Shown here: positions 9,402 through 35,929 of the stretch, in pieces
How the letters are laid out: each line of letters opens with the position of its first letter
Position numbering within the stretch: position 1 is the first letter of the stretch
Assembly: GCA_001940705.1 (NCBI GenBank)
Contig: MEHG01000009.1
Location: forward strand, 1 to 36,025
DNA from: Candidatus Thorarchaeota archaeon AB_25
GTDB lineage: Archaea; Asgardarchaeota; Thorarchaeia; Thorarchaeales; Thorarchaeaceae
Direction: 5' to 3'
DNA: 36,025 bases
Position numbers and translations under genes: made by a program
Notes under the pieces: model-generated
Databases searched by the model: none
What the model saw: the letters and a program-made list of their open reading frames with translations, nothing else
Told to the model about the DNA's origin: nothing

Positions 9402-10769
9402 TCAGAACACCTCCTTGATGAAATTGATGGCATTCTTTGCTGCTGAGTAACCACTCGTAGCCGCAACACCTAAGCCGCTCTTCTCAGTAGAATAATCATA
9501 TCCTGCCAAGACTGATCCAGCGGCGAAGAGATTCGAAGCCCACTCCACACCATCTTCTTTAACTGGTCTGAAGTGTGGATCAACAGTCAACCCACAGGAA
9601 TAGAGAGGTTGACCCTCTGGACTGATTGCAACACGATTTGTGAAACGAGATGGTAGAATATCGCCAGCTGAGTGGTATGTTCCTGTGACTGTCATCAAGT
9701 CAAAGAGAGATTCATGAATTCCGTTTTCATCTCCACTTAATCCGCATCCTATGTACTTCCCTGTAGCAAGGATGAACGCCTTGGCATCAATCTGCATCTC
9801 TCTACGTGGGGCCTTCGCAGTCACACTACTCAATCGGTTATCAGTCGTGAAGGAGGATATTGCTTCATGACCAACTAGCATCTTTCCACCACTTCTTCTG
9901 AATAGTCCTTCTAGAGCGAGTTGAAGTCTCAATCCGGGAACGGATGGTGGAAATCCTAGTAATTCAAACACTTCGACACCTAACAGTTTCTCTAATTCTT
10001 TCTTGTTTTCAAGCGCATTCTTAAGACCAAGGACTGGTGGAAGAGCTACGTGAGTCGCTCCTAATTGGTCCACATGCATCTTCAACTGGTTTGCTAGTTC
10101 TTCGATGGAGTTTTCATGATCCAAATGTCTAGCAATCTCTATTGAGGACAAATTGTAGGATTTACCAAAGGGAGTAATCTGTAGTAAACATCGTCCAACC
10201 TTTCGAGGTGGCCCACTACTTGCGAGTCTATCCTCGAGATATGTCTTCGCTGCAATTGAGGGGTTGAAGTCAGGATAACCCGTAATTCCAGCCAAAAGAA
10301 GAACTCCATCCTCGCGTTCCTGAAGTGTTTCAGAATACATAGTTTCCTGAATCAGGCAGGTAGGTTTTGTTGTTCCAAGAATTGTGATAGCATGAATATT
10401 GGATTTGAATGAACCTCTCAGTTGAGCGATTGTTCCTTTAAGATTCGTCTTCAACCAAGTGATGGCATCCCGTGTTCTACTTACAATCTCATTTACTACA
10501 TTGTCTTCTTGTACCTCTTCACTGTAACCAACAATACTGTATGGATGAAGAGGTAGTAGTCCAGCAACAGCTGCGAGTCCCTCTTTAGGTGATGAGAATG
10601 GTTCAGAAGCATCTGGAAGGTATCCCATGACATCTATGGCACCGGACGAGTATGCAGTCGCACTCTGTCCTTTACGCAGTAGAATTGTTGAGAGACCCTC
10701 GTTGGAGGCGATAGAGCCTGCTACAAGACCAGCCATTCCTCCACCAATAACTAGGAGGTCACATTCAAT
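9402..10769 (-). CDS. glpB: Anaerobic glycerol-3-phosphate dehydrogenase subunit B, non-AUG/GUG/UUG start
   Basis: GlpB flavoprotein subunit. GQSATAYSSGAID and LPLHPYSIVGYSE match the Escherichia coli subunit (SSGSLD, HPYS). The FAD loop VIGGGMAG lies upstream of the first ATG (10736), so that ATG would remove the Rossmann motif. The frame extends back only to the glpA TAG stop, through ATA GAT ATT GAA TGT, with no ATG, GTG or TTG. Starting at ATT 10769 puts eight residues before GGG, exactly as in E. coli GlpB, and gives 455 residues. ATA at 10775 is the alternative. A GGAGGAGGGG site lies just upstream, inside the end of glpA. Identity is firm; the start is inferred. Confidence 0.85.
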   Translation of the reverse strand: MECDLLVIGGGMAGLVAGSIASNEGLSTILLRKGQSATAYSSGAIDVMGYLPDASEPFSSPKEGLAAVAGLLPLHPYSIVGYSEEVQEDNVVNEIVSRTRDAITWLKTNLKGTIAQLRGSFKSNIHAITILGTTKPTCLIQETMYSETLQEREDGVLLLAGITGYPDFNPSIAAKTYLEDRLASSGPPRKVGRCLLQITPFGKSYNLSSIEIARHLDHENSIEELANQLKMHVDQLGATHVALPPVLGLKNALENKKELEKLLGVEVFELLGFPPSVPGLRLQLALEGLFRRSGGKMLVGHEAISSFTTDNRLSSVTAKAPRREMQIDAKAFILATGKYIGCGLSGDENGIHESLFDLMTVTGTYHSAGDILPSRFTNRVAISPEGQPLYSCGLTVDPHFRPVKEDGVEWASNLFAAGSVLAGYDYSTEKSGLGVAATSGYSAAKNAINFIKEVF

Positions 10770-28730: not shown

Positions 28731-28842
28731 ATCGCTTGTAGGACGACATCAAAACAACAATGAATCTGATTTGAATACCGACCTAGTATTACTCGCAATC
28801 ATATTCACGTATGACGCTGAACATACTCAGGTGATTATCGAG

Positions 28843-28983
28843 ATGAAGCTCGTAACCTTACACATTCCGGAAACTTATGTGGATGGACTAGAAAAACTTG
28901 TTGAAAGTAACCTCTATCCAAACAGATCAGAAGCCATCCGAATCGCTATTCGCGACCTGCTCAAGAGAGAGCTGTGGGGTTGA
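28843..28983 (+). CDS. Ribbon-helix-helix (CopG-type) regulator
   Basis: 46 residues, essentially one RHH unit: strand KLVTLHIPE, helix TYVDGLEKLVESNL and helix SEAIRIAIRDLLKREL after NR. The dimer would bind an inverted repeat in DNA. ATG 28843 is chosen because AGGTGA lies 8 bases upstream; an open frame from 28771 would add 24 residues unlike the family. It is followed by a hairpin with a T-run (28991-29018), so it is probably a single-gene unit, upstream of two paralogous genes that have a 16-bp palindrome before them. CATATTCA, half of that palindrome, lies 36 bases before its own start. Confidence 0.85.
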   Translation: MKLVTLHIPETYVDGLEKLVESNLYPNRSEAIRIAIRDLLKRELWG

Positions 28984-28990
28984 TCACATG

Positions 28991-29018
28991 ATGGAGCCCC
29001 ACAAGCTCCATTCTTTTT
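28991..29018 (+). terminator. Hairpin terminator after the RHH gene
   Basis: A 7-bp stem (ATGGAGC and GCTCCAT) with a 7-base loop, followed by tctttttccc, begins 8 bases after the RHH stop. Confidence 0.75.
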
Positions 29019-29119
29019 CCCAACATCCGAGATTCATTCAAATGTGAACTAAGAGTCGGAGCTTTGTTAGCACGCCTCCATTGGGGGAGCTATCTATAGA
29101 AGAAACTTTGATATTATCT

Positions 29120-29135
29120 CATATTCATGAATATG
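29120..29135. promoter_or_regulatory. 16-bp perfect palindrome, candidate operator
   Basis: CATATTCATGAATATG lies 10 bases before the TTG of six-cysteine copy 1 and about 20 bases after the TATA-like TATCTATAGA (29091-29100), near the expected transcription start. RHH dimers bind such inverted repeats, and an RHH gene is the next gene upstream. The same half, CATATTCA, is at 28800-28807 before that RHH gene. Confidence 0.45.
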
Positions 29136-29145
29136 TAATAAGAGA

Positions 29146-30159
29146 TTGTGCCTGAACACAACTAGGAGTGTCACCAAAATCCGTCCAGAAGCTTCCCGAG
29201 TGAATGCGGAACCAAGCACAGTGTCAGACTCTACAGATAGTCCTAGTCATCTTGTAAGAGGCTGCCCTTGTTATCGCGAGTTTGGTGAAGAGAAAGTCTG
29301 TTTGAACAATGATAGTGTTTTTCCAGTCAATGCAATCTCGGTAGACCCAAGTTTCTTCAGTCAACTCGATTCAAGATCATTACTTGAGGAATTCCAAAGC
29401 GATAACCAAAGCATGTGTTATCTCCTTATGTTCCTCGATAGAGAAGAAGGATTCTGCTATTGTGTGAGTCAGAACCAACAAATTTGCATTAATGAGAAAG
29501 GTGTCAAGGTGTCAGAGATTGACAGCGCATTGCAATTCGTAACCTCCTCTGAAAAAAGCAGAGATGGTGTTCTTTGTTCTGACTGTCTATACAGGTACCT
29601 TAGAACCTTGGGTGAGAGTTCAGAGGGCTTTCTGACAGACGATGAGAGACAGGGGATCATTGCGACCTATGTCCGTGAGCTAGCCACCAATATGGCAAAG
29701 CAACTCAGTGGTTATGAGGGGGGTGGAAACCCCACAGAGTTCAATAACCATCTATGGGGCTATCTTAGAGAGATTAATAGAAGCCGCTCTCACTGGGCAT
29801 CGATGATTCTCAATCTGAAGAAAATGAAGACAGAGGAGGACCTGATTGATTTGGTAGACTCCTATAGAACTCTTGCACGTCTGGAGTCCGTTTTTCTATT
29901 TCAGGTTTTATCCCTTGATGATCCAGCTGATGAAACAGATCCACTCAGTATCCTTCGTTTTATGGTTGGCGTTTCTGAGAAAGTCATCACTGTTAACAAT
30001 GCAATACGTGAGAGAACAAACAGCCTCGTTGAACGTGATGCCATTCCTGACAATATTCGGGAGATGCTTGCCCAGCATTCTGAAGCGAGAAAGACAACAG
30101 AGTACAAGTTCAGCAATCTTGTTTCTGCCCTTCACAATATAGACACACATGCTGCATAA
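29146..30159 (+). CDS. Six-cysteine family protein, tandem copy 1
   Basis: 337 residues from TTG 29146, no family recognised. Residues 36-150 form a conserved domain beginning LVRGCPCYREFGEE; six cysteines are shared with copy 2: C40, C52, C91, C106, C144 and C147 (the last two in LCSDCLY). The spacing C-x11-C-x38-C-x14-C-x37-C-x2-C is identical in both copies. C2, C42, C104 and C114 are not shared. The rest (about 165-335) is predicted mostly helical with no signal peptide or membrane segment, so cytoplasmic. The cysteines could bind zinc or an Fe-S cluster. The start is uncertain: no strong ribosome site, in-frame GTG at codon 19. Confidence 0.75.
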   Translation: MCLNTTRSVTKIRPEASRVNAEPSTVSDSTDSPSHLVRGCPCYREFGEEKVCLNNDSVFPVNAISVDPSFFSQLDSRSLLEEFQSDNQSMCYLLMFLDREEGFCYCVSQNQQICINEKGVKVSEIDSALQFVTSSEKSRDGVLCSDCLYRYLRTLGESSEGFLTDDERQGIIATYVRELATNMAKQLSGYEGGGNPTEFNNHLWGYLREINRSRSHWASMILNLKKMKTEEDLIDLVDSYRTLARLESVFLFQVLSLDDPADETDPLSILRFMVGVSEKVITVNNAIRERTNSLVERDAIPDNIREMLAQHSEARKTTEYKFSNLVSALHNIDTHAA

Positions 30160-30222
30160 TAACTTCTAAATGGTCACTAGTTGTTATCAGGACCTGTTCT
30201 GTAGAGCGTTTTGAGGAAACGC

Positions 30223-31221
30223 ATGCTTGAGTTGGAGAAAAGGAACGTGTTTGGAACTAGCAGTAGTAAGCAGGAGCAAGAATCAAGCATCAAGCTAGTC
30301 AGAGGGTGTCCAGTGTACAAGGTATTCGGAGACGAGCGGCTCTGTGTAAATGATGACAGAGTTCTGGAAATCGATGCTATTGAGATAGATCCCTCTATTT
30401 TCTCGTTTCACTTTGATAAGGACAGCATGGAGGAAGAACGGGCGTCTGATGGCAATGTCTGTTATGCGTCAATCTACATCAACTATCAAGACAACAAAGT
30501 TTACTGTATCTCACAAGGATGGGTCTTGAGAATCCATGGACAAGATGTACCAGGAAATGACCTAGAAGATGCAATGCAGTTTCTTTCGACCAAGGAAATC
30601 ACAAGCAGTGCAGAGCTATGTTCTGATTGCCTGTACAAATTCATACTGACACTTGGTGACACTTTTTCAGATTTATTGACTGAGAAAGAGAAGACTGATG
30701 AAGTGAAGAAATATGTCGATAAGTTCTCACTCATGATTGCAGTGAAACATAGTCAAACTGACCAGATGATGGAACCCATTGGAACAGAAGATGATATTGA
30801 AGAAGGAATCGATCATTTTCAATTCCTTCGAAATTACTTGGTTCAGATCCTTGACCAACAAAGCTATTGGACAAAACTTGGTAATAATCTTGAGGAAGAG
30901 CAAGCTGAAGGCTGGGTACAGAATTTGGTCACGATGAGAGAGAAATTGTCCAGATTGGAATTCCAGTTTTATAGTCAAACCCTACAACTCAGGGACATTA
31001 ATGAGTTCAATATGCTCATCAAGATGCTTCAATATGTTCTCATGTCATCTGACGAAATTCTTGTTTTGAATGACTTGATTCATTCTGAGATCAGATCCGA
31101 TAAGTTCCGTGAGCTAGTTAAGAGGGATGACCGGTTGAAAGTTCTTGAGGGGTATGCCGAGAAGAGTCGCACTATCGAGCATAATTTTGGGAACATTTTG
31201 CAAATCCTGACCAAGTTGTAG
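30223..31221 (+). CDS. Six-cysteine family protein, tandem copy 2
   Basis: 332 residues from ATG 30223 (GAGG six bases upstream; in-frame TTG 30211 is an alternative). It shares with copy 1 LVRGCPxYxxFGxE, CxNxD, AIxxDPSxF, YCxSQ and LCSDCLY, and the six cysteines C29, C41, C80, C95, C133 and C136 at the same spacing. The C-terminal half is helical and acidic and diverges more (KLSRLEFQFYSQTLQL against ARLESVFLFQVLSL). The two genes are 63 bases apart on the same strand and arose by tandem duplication. The function is unknown; nothing here resembles an enzyme active site. Confidence 0.8.
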   Translation: MLELEKRNVFGTSSSKQEQESSIKLVRGCPVYKVFGDERLCVNDDRVLEIDAIEIDPSIFSFHFDKDSMEEERASDGNVCYASIYINYQDNKVYCISQGWVLRIHGQDVPGNDLEDAMQFLSTKEITSSAELCSDCLYKFILTLGDTFSDLLTEKEKTDEVKKYVDKFSLMIAVKHSQTDQMMEPIGTEDDIEEGIDHFQFLRNYLVQILDQQSYWTKLGNNLEEEQAEGWVQNLVTMREKLSRLEFQFYSQTLQLRDINEFNMLIKMLQYVLMSSDEILVLNDLIHSEIRSDKFRELVKRDDRLKVLEGYAEKSRTIEHNFGNILQILTKL

Positions 31222-31226
31222 ATTGA

Positions 31227-31805
31227 CTAAACCGTAAATCTTTGGTCAGAAAGAATAGTATCTACCAAGTGTTCGACCGTTGGGTTCTCTTCATTCCGGT
31301 TCCATTCTTCTGCAAACTCTTTGAAAAGCGCAATGTCCTCCAATACGGCATCAGCCAATTCTCTCAAATCTGAGATTTCAACTTCAGGGCCACTTCCAAG
31401 ACCAGGGCAGATTTCTTTCATGGCACTAAGACCCCAAGTCTTCTCATCGCCACCATCCCAGAAAACAAATGGAAAGGACATACACACCATTGGTCGAATT
31501 GTATGTATCATGCAGAGATTGTCCTTCAAGAATATACAATCTCCATTCTCCATTTTCTTTAGTGCGACATGGGCAGGTCCTTGCTCAGTGTTTACTACTG
31601 GAGTATCGCGTAGTCCTTCCGGCGAGTCAGAACTTGATAGGAGATAAAAATCAAATGCTCTGATCACTTCGCTTGATTCAAGACCCAGTCCCATGGAGAT
31701 TCGAACTATATCGCGTCCTGTGACTGTTACTAGTAGAGCTTCCTCTCTACAACATGCACCACACTTTATGCATTCAAACTGGATGCGGCTATCTTCAGGA
31801 TTCAC
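31227..31805 (-). CDS. YkgJ-like CxxCxxCC cysteine-cluster protein
   Basis: 192 residues. The N-terminal C12-x2-C15-x2-C18-C19 motif (CIKCGACC), then GDCIFLKDNLCMIHTIRPMVC and CMSFPF are the hallmarks of the YkgJ/UPF0153 family, thought to bind zinc or an Fe-S cluster. The function of that family is not settled. Starts with GTG 31805, with GGAGG 7 bases upstream. It follows the aminotransferase by 39 bases on the same strand, and converges with the six-cysteine copy 2, the stops being 5 bases apart. Confidence 0.85.
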   Translation of the reverse strand: MNPEDSRIQFECIKCGACCREEALLVTVTGRDIVRISMGLGLESSEVIRAFDFYLLSSSDSPEGLRDTPVVNTEQGPAHVALKKMENGDCIFLKDNLCMIHTIRPMVCMSFPFVFWDGGDEKTWGLSAMKEICPGLGSGPEVEISDLRELADAVLEDIALFKEFAEEWNRNEENPTVEHLVDTILSDQRFTV

Positions 31806-31844
31806 AAGGTAATCCTCCAGTATGCGTACATCATTTTGAAGGGA

Positions 31845-33011
31845 CTACAGCAGTGTCGGAAGGAATTCAGAGAGCACTGAGAGACCCTCTTTTATCACAG
31901 ACCGATCAGTTGCATACGAGAAGCGGAGGTGGTTGTCATAATCCTTTCCAAAAACAATCCCAGGTGTAGATGTGACCCCGGTTTTCTTCAGAATCAATTC
32001 CGCAAGAGTATTACTGCTAAGGTTGTATGCTGAGAAATCTGGAAACACATAAAATGCACCCATTGGATTAAGGCAAAAGATACCATCCATATTGTTGAAC
32101 ATATTAGTAATCTCATCACGTCGTTTCTCGTATTCTGTCGTCATCATCTTGATTGAACTCTGATCTCCTGTCAGAGCCTTTGTCCCAGCGTATTGAACGA
32201 ACGATGTCGCACAGGAAGTCGTGTTCTGTTGTATACGGACCATATTATTGATAGTTTCCTTATTGCCAACAGCAAACCCAAGTCGCCATCCAGTCATCGC
32301 ATAGGTTTTTGAGAACCCGTTTATGACCAAGGTATGCTCCAGGTTGGGGTCAATCTCTAACATCGATGGCTGTTTGAACCCATTATAGACCAACATCTCA
32401 TAGATCTCATCAGAGAAGACAACAAAATCATGGTCCACAGCGAGATCATGGATCAATTTCATTTGATCTTTGTCAAGGACACCGCCAGTCGGATTATTTG
32501 GGGTGTTGAGTACTAGAGCAGTGACTGTTTTAGAACAACTGTTTTTGAGCGCTTCTTCATCAAGACCATACCTAGGATGTGTATTGACATCTACAGGTTT
32601 AGCACCTACCGTCCTAATCAGGCTTCGGTAAGTTGGCCATGCTGGTGAGAGTACCAGAACATCATCTATTGAATCGAGTGTGCTGAGAAATCCTTGAAAG
32701 AGAGCCATCTTTGCTCCAGGAGTCACAATGACATTTTTGGACCCATCTATCTGGATTCCACGGCCAGAATAATGGTTTTCGATAGCATCGAGAAGAGGAG
32801 GAATTCCTCTGGCAGATGTATACCGTGTAAAACCATGCTCCAGAGCTTCAATTCCCGCAGCAACTATATGAGGCGGGGTTGGAAAATCAGGCTGACCTAC
32901 CTCAAAATGGTAGATACGCTTCCCTTCAGCTTCAAGACGTGTTGCTAACTCAAACATCTTGAGGGTTCCGGAGGCAGGAATCCGCTCCATAGTGTGAGAT
33001 GTCCAGTCCAT
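31845..33011 (-). CDS. PLP-dependent aminotransferase, class I/II
   Basis: 388 residues from ATG 33011 (GGTG 6 bases upstream; an in-frame TTG 33050 would add 13 residues). Fold-type I aspartate-aminotransferase family: NTPNNPTGG (N173), SDEIYE (D201), GFSKTYAMTGWRLGF with the Schiff-base lysine K235, and a C-terminal HLRFSYA with the substrate arginine. It transfers an amino group between an amino acid and a 2-oxoacid; the substrate (aspartate, alanine or aromatic) cannot be told. The neighbours, DUF362 upstream and YkgJ-like downstream, do not point to a pathway. Confidence 0.9.
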   Translation of the reverse strand: MDWTSHTMERIPASGTLKMFELATRLEAEGKRIYHFEVGQPDFPTPPHIVAAGIEALEHGFTRYTSARGIPPLLDAIENHYSGRGIQIDGSKNVIVTPGAKMALFQGFLSTLDSIDDVLVLSPAWPTYRSLIRTVGAKPVDVNTHPRYGLDEEALKNSCSKTVTALVLNTPNNPTGGVLDKDQMKLIHDLAVDHDFVVFSDEIYEMLVYNGFKQPSMLEIDPNLEHTLVINGFSKTYAMTGWRLGFAVGNKETINNMVRIQQNTTSCATSFVQYAGTKALTGDQSSIKMMTTEYEKRRDEITNMFNNMDGIFCLNPMGAFYVFPDFSAYNLSSNTLAELILKKTGVTSTPGIVFGKDYDNHLRFSYATDRSVIKEGLSVLSEFLPTLL

Positions 33012-33108
33012 ATGAAACACCACTTGTGGGCCATTGCAGGCGATATTCAAACCACCTTAGAGGTCTAATCGCTGGTTTTAACACCATGATAAAGTCTTTC
33101 CTGATGAC

Positions 33109-33933
33109 CTATTTTTGGAAAAGCTGATTTAGTTCCTCAATCTGATGGTCTGTACCTCGCACAGTGATTCTATCGGGTATAGCTTCTCCCATACCGAGTG
33201 TGTGAGCAGCTCGCAGATGTTCTACCTTCATAGGGTCAATTCCAAGAAGATTCGAACAGAACGCATCCACAGCAACAGGGTCAATTCCAACCACCACTCC
33301 CCCAACATGCTTTGATTGTCCATCATCTCTGTTTCCTATGACAACATCAGTTAGGTCAATCACCGTGAGATTGGGTCTGTATGCTGTAAGGAGGTCCATC
33401 AACACACTATCAATGGAGGTATGATAGATGCTCTTATCCAGTTCGGGTAGGAGTCCAAAGAGATTCTTAATCCCTGCACCTATTGTGCAGATTTTTGGTT
33501 CTGCCTTCAAAGTGGCCACATTGATGAAGAATGCATCTTCATGAAGAATTCGGGGCATTTTCCTGTCTTCAAAGTAATGACCTGAGAACATGACTGAAGT
33601 CATGTCAACGTCTGAGAGGTTCACAAGCTCCACCTGTTCATTTTCAAGGTCAGTGTAGCCACATTGTAAGAATGCATCTCCCGTGTTTCGTAAAGGGGTA
33701 TCACTTTCTACTATACTAACAGGACCAAGAGAACCGAACATCCGAATGACAGCTCGAACCATATTCACATCAGTATTGCCAGGAAGGTTTGGATCATAGA
33801 TTGATGGTTTGATTACAACACGTGTTGTGTTCTTAGGAGGAACTATAGGTTCATTCAGCTTTGAGAGAGCTGAACTCAACGCTTCCCCTGGACTTCTTTT
33901 CAGTCCAATGGCAACCTCAGACTTAGACTCCAT
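33109..33933 (-). CDS. DUF362 domain protein
   Basis: 274 residues of the DUF362 family: VVIKPSIYDP, SIVESDTPLRNTGDAFLQCGY, IGAGIKNLFGLLP, and VVGIDPVAVDAFCSNLLGID all match the domain. Some DUF362 proteins carry Fe-S ferredoxin domains; this one has none, and its few cysteines do not form a cluster motif. The function is unknown. ATG 33933 is divergent from the ThiF-like gene, with only 59 bases between them, including GCTTTAAGT near 33960 that could serve as a TATA box. The aminotransferase follows after 97 bases. Confidence 0.85.
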   Translation of the reverse strand: MESKSEVAIGLKRSPGEALSSALSKLNEPIVPPKNTTRVVIKPSIYDPNLPGNTDVNMVRAVIRMFGSLGPVSIVESDTPLRNTGDAFLQCGYTDLENEQVELVNLSDVDMTSVMFSGHYFEDRKMPRILHEDAFFINVATLKAEPKICTIGAGIKNLFGLLPELDKSIYHTSIDSVLMDLLTAYRPNLTVIDLTDVVIGNRDDGQSKHVGGVVVGIDPVAVDAFCSNLLGIDPMKVEHLRAAHTLGMGEAIPDRITVRGTDHQIEELNQLFQK

Positions 33934-33992: not shown

Positions 33993-35024
33993 ATGAAGCT
34001 CACAGAAGATCAGCGAGAGAGATACTCACGAATGCTTGCACTTCGTGATTTTTCGGAAGACGATATGGATACTATAATGAATACATCAGTTGCCATGCTA
34101 GGAGCGGGCGGGCTTGGAAGTCCATCACTTCGTCTTCTCACGGCCATAGGCTTTGGTAGAATTAGGATTGTGGATCGTGATATTGTTGAGCTTTCAAATA
34201 TACAGAGACAGACTGTCTTCAACACAGAAGATATTGGAAAACCAAAAGCGGAAGCAGCAGCCAGTAATCTCGAGCTGATGAATCCAGAGGTCCAATTTGA
34301 CCCGATATGCGTGTCTGTCGATGATGACAATGCTATTGATGTGTTGAAGGGAGTTGACATAATTGTTGATGGATTGGACTCGTTCAAAACTCGGAGAGCT
34401 GTCAATAAAGCAAGTCTAGCTCTGAAAATCCCATACGTTTTCGCGGGAGCTGTTGAGTACTACGCAAATCTTACTACTTTCATCCCAGGAGAAACAGGTT
34501 GTCTACATTGCGTTATGGGAGATGCACAAGATAATCCTGAGAATACATGTGCGCAGGTAGGAGTGTCACCAACATTACTCTCTTTTGCGGCTTCAGTTGA
34601 GGTAAACGAGGCACTGAAAATTGCGCTGGGGAGAGAACCAGATTTAGTAAATCGATTGATGACCATTGACGTAAGTACATTGAGTTTCGATTTCTTTGAC
34701 ATTGGGAAAGCAGTAGATTGTGAAGTGTGCTCACAACCCCAAAAAGAGCCTGAAAAAAGGAGTAATGAGCTCAGAGTGATGCAACTCTGTTCTCAGAGCT
34801 TCAACATCTCACCAGGGAAACTGCTAAAGCTAAATCTTGATGCACTGGCCAGTAAGCTTGACTCATCCTACTCGGTAGAGCGGAGAAAACGTTTCCTTAT
34901 TGTGACCATCGCCCCTGAAACTAAAGTGACAGTTATGCCAGCCGGAAATCTCATTGTGAAGGGCGTAGCTAACGCTGAAGCAGCCACAAAGATATTCCAA
35001 GAGATAATCGGCGATGGAGATTAG
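33993..35024 (+). CDS. ThiF/MoeB-type E1-like adenylyltransferase
   Basis: 343 residues. The ATP site has GAGGLGSPS (37-45) and NIQRQ with R72. Zinc ligands C170, C173, C243 and C246 are present (GCLHC and CEVC). C186 in NTCAQVGVSP is a candidate for the catalytic or persulfide cysteine. These enzymes adenylate the C-terminal glycine of a ubiquitin-like sulfur carrier (ThiS, MoaD, SAMP). An extra domain of about 85 residues (from 258) ends in VTVMPAGNLIVKGVANAEAA, similar to extensions in some archaeal and bacterial ThiF proteins. It has one adenylation domain and no E2-binding ubiquitin-fold domain, so it is not a eukaryote-like E1. No ubiquitin-like gene is nearby. Confidence 0.88.
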   Translation: MKLTEDQRERYSRMLALRDFSEDDMDTIMNTSVAMLGAGGLGSPSLRLLTAIGFGRIRIVDRDIVELSNIQRQTVFNTEDIGKPKAEAAASNLELMNPEVQFDPICVSVDDDNAIDVLKGVDIIVDGLDSFKTRRAVNKASLALKIPYVFAGAVEYYANLTTFIPGETGCLHCVMGDAQDNPENTCAQVGVSPTLLSFAASVEVNEALKIALGREPDLVNRLMTIDVSTLSFDFFDIGKAVDCEVCSQPQKEPEKRSNELRVMQLCSQSFNISPGKLLKLNLDALASKLDSSYSVERRKRFLIVTIAPETKVTVMPAGNLIVKGVANAEAATKIFQEIIGDGD

Positions 35025-35929
35025 TCACCGAAGAAGAGTCTACGCGCTCGACGTCTTCGCTCATCCTCATCCTCATCGCTATCTGGGGGTGGAGGTGGTG
35101 GAGGTGGTTCTGTTATTGGCGCAGGAGCCTCAGTTGTATCAGCATCCTCTTCATCGATAGAGCCACCATCAAGATCATCATCAGAGAGTACTGGAGGCTC
35201 AGGGATACTCGTCGATTCTGATAGTTCCTCAATGGATTCCGTTTCAACAGGAGGCGGGATTTCTACAGCCTCATCCTCTTCAACAAGCTCTGGATCCTCT
35301 TTCGTCGGAGCCACAGCCTTCTCATAATCTGCCCATGTAAAAGATGGTTTATGATCAGTGTCCTCATCATCTACATCTTCGACTTCTGGTTCTGAAGTGG
35401 GAGTCACTTCATCATCAGCTATAGAGGGTTCAACATCAAGATCAGCAGGCTCTACAAGCTCAAAGTCTGATGAGAACTCACGGGGAGGTCCATCTATCGA
35501 GAGGTCTTCAATCTCCTCCTCTTCGAGTCGACCTACAGTGTCAATACTGACGGAGTCGCTTTCAGATTCGATTGGAACCTCAGAAGGTTCTGGTGGTATT
35601 TCATCAGGAATCGCCTCAAATTCGTCTTCGGATGGCAATTCCAAAGAAGACCCAATTTCATAGCCAGAGGGAACTTTTTCCATCTCGGGTGATTCACTAC
35701 TTCGCGATTCACCCTCAAGAAAAGTAAGGCCCAAATCATCTTTCAAGCAGGACTCACAGCGTTTTGCTGCTGCAAGTAGCCCATCATGAATGAAATCGTC
35801 TAATGCCTTTGCACGATTTTCGTTTCTTCGTGCCCATTTGATAAAACTATCAACCATCCTTAGAGCGTCACGGACGCCCATCCAGTACTCATCTGACCGT
35901 TTCTTCTCTGAGTCCACTATTGACACCAA
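35021..35929 (-). CDS. Acidic, polyproline-containing hypothetical protein
   Basis: 302 residues. Residues 1-75 are helical with a CESC pair and end near LTFLEG. Residues 75-270 are low-complexity and acidic (many E, D, S and P), so probably disordered. Eight consecutive prolines follow TE, then DSDEDEDE and a basic C-terminus RRRRARRLFFGD. Charged-to-basic switches like this suggest partner binding, but no known motif is present. The start may be TTG 35929, GTG 35926 or GTG 35917 (GGTG six bases upstream). The stop overlaps the ThiF-like stop by 4 bases, convergent. Confidence 0.65.
   Translation of the reverse strand: MVSIVDSEKKRSDEYWMGVRDALRMVDSFIKWARRNENRAKALDDFIHDGLLAAAKRCESCLKDDLGLTFLEGESRSSESPEMEKVPSGYEIGSSLELPSEDEFEAIPDEIPPEPSEVPIESESDSVSIDTVGRLEEEEIEDLSIDGPPREFSSDFELVEPADLDVEPSIADDEVTPTSEPEVEDVDDEDTDHKPSFTWADYEKAVAPTKEDPELVEEDEAVEIPPPVETESIEELSESTSIPEPPVLSDDDLDGGSIDEEDADTTEAPAPITEPPPPPPPPDSDEDEDERRRRARRLFFGD

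Follow-up and report, generated by a model that had tools for sequence, protein, structure and literature searches.

A CdrS-like regulator gene followed by two paralogous six-cysteine proteins in Thorarchaeota, and a rare promoter element that also precedes cdrS-ftsZ and a gene for a LonB-like AAA+ protein

Our computational analysis of a 36,025-nucleotide stretch of DNA from Candidatus Thorarchaeota archaeon AB_25 (contig MEHG01000009.1, positions 1-36,025, hereafter the window) identified a locus in which a gene for a CdrS-like ribbon-helix-helix (RHH) regulator is followed by genes for two proteins with a shared six-cysteine domain, designated copy 1 (group A) and copy 2 (group B). An earlier note on this DNA had placed the locus at 28771-31221 and regarded it as a candidate for an undescribed system, but it is not isolated, as the promoter element of the RHH gene is common to cdrS-ftsZ and to a gene encoding a LonB-like AAA+ ATPase. 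The arrangement suggests that cell division, or the control of the cell cycle, has a component in Asgard archaea that is not yet characterised, and the best reading of the two cysteine proteins is that they are metal-binding, probably zinc-binding, adaptor proteins in an FtsZ/LonB-like regulon.

The RHH gene, copy 1 and copy 2 were found in the same order and on the same strand in nearly all Thorarchaeota loci examined, in a profile scan of genome contigs built on the copy-2 alignment, and the linkage of the regulator gene to the pair is therefore genuine. Exceptions were a few Thorarchaeota genomes with no detectable A or B (L032, L048), one locus with B and a group-C protein (L029), and loci with a tandem pair of CdrS-like RHH genes before copy 1 (L026/L159, L125). 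In the window, the RHH gene is located at 28843..28983 on the forward strand and encodes 46 aa from an ATG; the start proposed earlier, at 28771, is too early, since conservation begins at the ATG at 28843 and the 24 additional residues correspond to promoter and leader. Copy 1 (29146..30159, forward strand, 337 aa) and copy 2 (30211..31221, forward strand, 336 aa) are both listed from TTG codons, and both starts are uncertain, with GTG 29200 as the most conserved candidate for copy 1 and GTG 30247 as a possible start for copy 2. Their N-terminal cysteine domains extend over about 29239-29625 and about 30283-30669, respectively, on the forward strand. Copy 2 is followed by a convergent gene encoding a CxxCxxCC protein (PF03692; 31227-31805 in the window), and in several genera an NDP-sugar epimerase gene lies between the two. 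No Rfam match was found.

The six cysteines of copy 1 (C40, C52, C91, C106, C144 and C147) and of copy 2 (C33, C45, C84, C99, C137 and C140) are separated by 11, 38, 14, 37 and 2 intervening residues in both proteins, which confirms the identical spacing that had been noticed in the window. All six are invariant in 61 of 61 aligned homologues, as are three other residues of the domain (one Asn, one Asp and one Tyr), which shows that the shared spacing did not arise by chance; no homologue without the cysteines was found in this alignment, and the constraint that had been proposed to act on the domain is supported. A seventh cysteine, within a GCPC motif, is present in 30 of 30 copy-1 and 27 of 31 copy-2 orthologues, its position being occupied by Val in copy 2 of the window. 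Distant Asgard homologues still have the six cysteines, with slightly variable spacing, and often lack the seventh, indicating that the six form the core.

Both genes are under purifying selection, judging from dN values of about 0.08-0.17 against dS values that were at least 1 or saturated, and copy 2 is the better conserved of the two. The C-terminal divergence described previously holds between the copies and does not extend to orthologues of copy 2, among which the C-terminus is strongly conserved. A and B are old paralogues derived from an ancient duplication; in the tree of the cysteine domain, which was based on few columns and had long branches, group A formed one side with modest support.

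Neither copy matched any entry in Pfam, NCBIfam, PHROGs, PADLOC or the PDB sequences, no relatives were found in phage sequences or IMG/VR, and no description of the cysteine domain was found in a search of open-licence papers. Weak Pfam matches to Arc_capsid, DUF4428 and GSKIP were at chance level and were discarded. AlphaFold2 produced confident models of copy 2 (mean pLDDT 85.8) and of the cysteine domain of copy 1 (mean pLDDT 87.2), and Foldseek comparison of the whole copy 2 or of the cysteine domain with the PDB gave no match at E<=0.001. Thus, sequence-profile and fold searches alike agreed with the earlier view of the domain as unrecognised. In the models, the domain comprises two beta-hairpins, each bracketed by a pair of cysteines, and a helix that begins with the final CxxC. 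This modelled cysteine layout suggests zinc, and it is plausible that both copies bind metal. The C-terminus of copy 2 was modelled as a bundle of long helices, and that of copy 1 is presumed to be helical by homology with copy 2.

Of the 228 genomes of the phylum, 87 had a match to the cysteine-domain profile, and the domain family was found here only in Asgard archaea, the search of other phyla being non-exhaustive. The homologue and neighbourhood searches proposed earlier thus revealed an Asgard-wide domain whose linkage to RHH is kept in Thorarchaeota. The domain occurs as a stand-alone protein of 119-160 aa; with a C-terminal extension (groups A, B and C); C-terminal to an Arf-family GTPase in one Asgard family (f22; L092, L162, L163); C-terminal to a hydrophobic, probably polytopic membrane segment, for which no Pfam match was found (L094, L111); and N-terminal to a thioredoxin-like domain in one Asgard family (L104, a weak profile match). 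The resemblance to the Arf-family small GTPases of Asgard archaea (PF00025) lies in the f22 fusion, and the window proteins themselves have no GTPase domain. Some genes for group-C cysteine proteins were also located near Rab-like small GTPase genes (L040, L109 and L145/L169). Asgard genomes carry many genes of this kind, and this proximity is therefore weak evidence and the link suggestive only. Two stand-alone cysteine proteins (L096, L097) are encoded just 3' of a gene whose 1,475-aa product combines a TrmB-type HTH with an apolipoprotein-like coiled coil, beside GAPDH.

The six to seven invariant cysteines might alternatively hold a redox-active Fe-S cluster or form a disulfide switch, in which case A and B would sense redox state and signal it to the RHH protein or to metabolism. 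The host is probably anaerobic, and the thioredoxin-like fusion in one Asgard family would fit such a role. However, the proteins contain only the CxxC plus widely spaced cysteines, profile searches did not find a known Fe-S family motif, and the modelled hairpins flanked by cysteines, with the CxxC starting a helix, are more like structural zinc sites; a redox function is possible but rather unlikely.

The RHH protein, which is nearly invariant across Thorarchaeota, matched RHH_1 (E=4e-8), and its best NCBIfam match was CdrS (NF058555; E=7e-14), with 51.5 bits, below the curated cut-off of 100. Its single-domain form and short length are in keeping with CdrS, for which about 50-60 aa are expected. 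RHH proteins that truly adjoin ftsZ in Asgard archaea scored only 45.6 and 49.1 bits against the same model, which indicates that the CdrS model is halophile-specific. Other Asgard families have orthologues of the window RHH, 73-78% identical, whose genes immediately precede ftsZ; in Thorarchaeota, a separate RHH paralogue adjoins ftsZ. By these comparisons, the window RHH is CdrS-like and paralogous to the RHH encoded next to ftsZ.

CdrS has been shown experimentally to regulate ftsZ and cell division in haloarchaea (PMC7439475, PMC8406309), and in Haloferax, ChIP sites of CdrS were located before ftsZ1, Cdc48d/AAA+ and proteasome genes (PMC8406309). The window locus resembles this CdrS-FtsZ2 regulon (NF058555; PMC7439475, PMC8406309) in that its short, single-domain RHH has CdrS as its best family match, in that the regulator gene heads a gene group, and in that a cis-element is common to ftsZ and an AAA+ gene, comparable to the Haloferax sites before ftsZ1, Cdc48d and the proteasome genes. 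It differs in that the RHH gene precedes two cysteine proteins rather than ftsZ, and in that its product, paralogous to the ftsZ-linked RHH, scores below the curated cut-off and is only a putative binder of the element. The aCcr1 family (NF053762) shares with it the RHH fold class and an archaeal cell-cycle context, but the window RHH matches that family much more weakly (21 bits, where the cut-off is 60).

The shared cis-element, 19 bp in length, is located at 28786..28804 on the forward strand, at -57 from the RHH ATG; its sequence in the window is GTATTACTCGCAATCATAT and its consensus GTAWTAYWCACANNCATAT. The GTAWTAYWCACANNCATAT block is common to the upstream regions of the window-type RHH genes and of the ftsZ-linked RHH genes. 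For the ftsZ-linked genes its position is -53 in 18 of 19 cases. In RHH-A-B loci, where it usually runs on as NNNNGTATGAC (to 28815 in the window), it is located at -56 to -58, or at -105 to -113 in some genera. Scores of at least 14 out of 17 were obtained for 39 of 43 upstream regions and for 7 of 2150 shuffles. When one mismatch was allowed, 30 matches were obtained in 23 Thorarchaeota genomes, 27 of them at the two RHH promoters, against three control hits. In a stringent scan of 20 genomes, all 20 matches lay before the RHH gene, the ftsZ-linked RHH gene or the LonB-like gene, again against three control hits.

The LonB-like gene (TIGR00764; 307.7 bits, below the cut-off of 516.6) was recognised as the third element-bearing gene via weaker matches. 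In 19 Thorarchaeota genomes, some of them from other genera, it is preceded by GTAATACTCACAATTATCT or a variant, located at -51 to -58 (loci L247, at G000:C27, site 9661-9679, and L268-L286). The motif was derived from the promoters of the RHH and ftsZ-linked RHH genes, so that their recovery is partly circular, but the scarcity of the element elsewhere is not, nor are the LonB-like sites, which were not used in its derivation. The LonB-like gene is thus likely to be a third regulon member; apart from it, the other two-mismatch sites looked like chance on inspection. Upstream of an RHH paralogue of the window's own genome (L157, on contig C16), the sequence GACCTAGTAATACC resembles the first part of the shared element.

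The element could be the site of a factor other than the RHH protein. It could also be an unusual core promoter, in which case A and B would be tied to division only through strong or growth-phase expression; its fixed distance from the start codon and its location near the expected BRE/TATA position are in line with this view. Against it, the stringent pattern was confined to three promoters across the 20 genomes scanned, and we consider a core promoter unlikely.

The earlier note had remarked on a palindrome that, like the RHH gene, precedes the pair. A 16-bp perfect palindrome, CATATTCATGAATATG, does exist at 29120..29135, between the RHH gene and copy 1 and not before the RHH gene, but its sequence is not conserved, although dyads occur at the same offset in three other members of the genus (L043, L050, L052); it is the 19-bp element upstream of the RHH gene that is conserved. 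The same intergenic region contains a terminator-like hairpin, GGAGC-CCCACAA-GCTCC, with a T-rich tract (28993..29019, forward strand), which is kept in close relatives, and, before copy 1, a block resembling a promoter, AGAAACTTTGATATTATCT (29101..29119, forward strand), which is kept in most genus members compared, being absent in L042 and replaced in L044. Because of these two features, transcription of A and B in the window's genus may not depend on the shared element; co-transcription of the RHH gene with copy 1 is uncertain in this genus, and control of copies 1 and 2 by the RHH protein is suggested by synteny.

The shared element also bears on whether the locus serves metal homeostasis, with a NikR-related RHH controlling cysteine-rich metal-handling proteins beside a CxxCxxCC gene. 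NikR models do match the RHH weakly, and the PF03692 gene, which encodes a cysteine-rich putative metal-chelating domain, adjoins copy 2. However, the 46-aa RHH has no NikR metal-sensing domain, the element is common to ftsZ and not to transporters, and the PF03692 gene is convergent and separated from copy 2 by the sugar-epimerase gene in several genera; furthermore, its cysteine pattern is unrelated and its profile does not match copies 1 and 2. This explanation is quite improbable and was rejected, as was a toxin-antitoxin-like module in which the RHH would be the antitoxin and A and B the effectors, a reading that is hardly credible: a small RHH gene directly 5' of tandem genes recalls such modules, but the RHH is CdrS-like and not ParD/RelB-like, the locus is near-universal and syntenic in one lineage rather than patchy or mobile, and no PADLOC, PHROG or phage homologues and no known antitoxin or toxin families were found.

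In the explanation that we favour, the RHH protein or its ftsZ-linked paralogue would bind the 19-bp element before its own gene, cdrS-ftsZ and the LonB-like AAA+ gene, and this binding would time the expression of both cysteine proteins together with that of FtsZ. The cysteines would bind metal, most likely structural Zn2+, and thereby hold together a compact protein-binding module of about 120 residues with six or seven cysteines, and the helical bundle seen in the copy-2 model would serve as an interaction arm. A and B would then act as cytosolic adaptors or regulators in cell division or in a coupled membrane process, and elsewhere in Asgard archaea the same module is attached to an Arf-family GTPase or a membrane segment. 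Taken as a whole, from a CdrS-type regulator and its shared element to zinc adaptors timed with FtsZ, we would give this explanation roughly even chances.

A bolder version, offered tentatively and on balance doubtful, is that an Asgard-wide metal-binding plug-in module, used in Arf-family GTPases, membrane proteins and helical adaptors, has become in Thorarchaeota a dedicated pair of proteins for FtsZ-linked division whose timing, like that of the LonB-like AAA+ protein, is set by a duplicated CdrS regulator. If true, it would represent a previously unseen link of FtsZ-based division to small-GTPase or membrane biology in those archaea that are most closely related to eukaryotes. The locus bears on how Asgard archaea divide and on what their small GTPases do, and the Arf-GTPase fusion offers a way to approach the partners of GTPases close to where eukaryotic membrane traffic originated. 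The analysis provides named genes, a domain not described before, a cis-element with a defined sequence and a regulon of three promoters, so that the question of what else is switched on with FtsZ in an Asgard archaeon becomes directly testable.

Two further conserved gene groups were observed downstream of copy 2. The first (31227-33933 in the window) is a convergent block comprising the CxxCxxCC (PF03692) gene, a class I/II aminotransferase gene and a DUF362 gene. The second (33993-35929) consists of a gene for a ThiF-like E1 protein followed by a convergent gene for a very acidic 302-aa protein, a pair that is kept in many Thorarchaeota loci.
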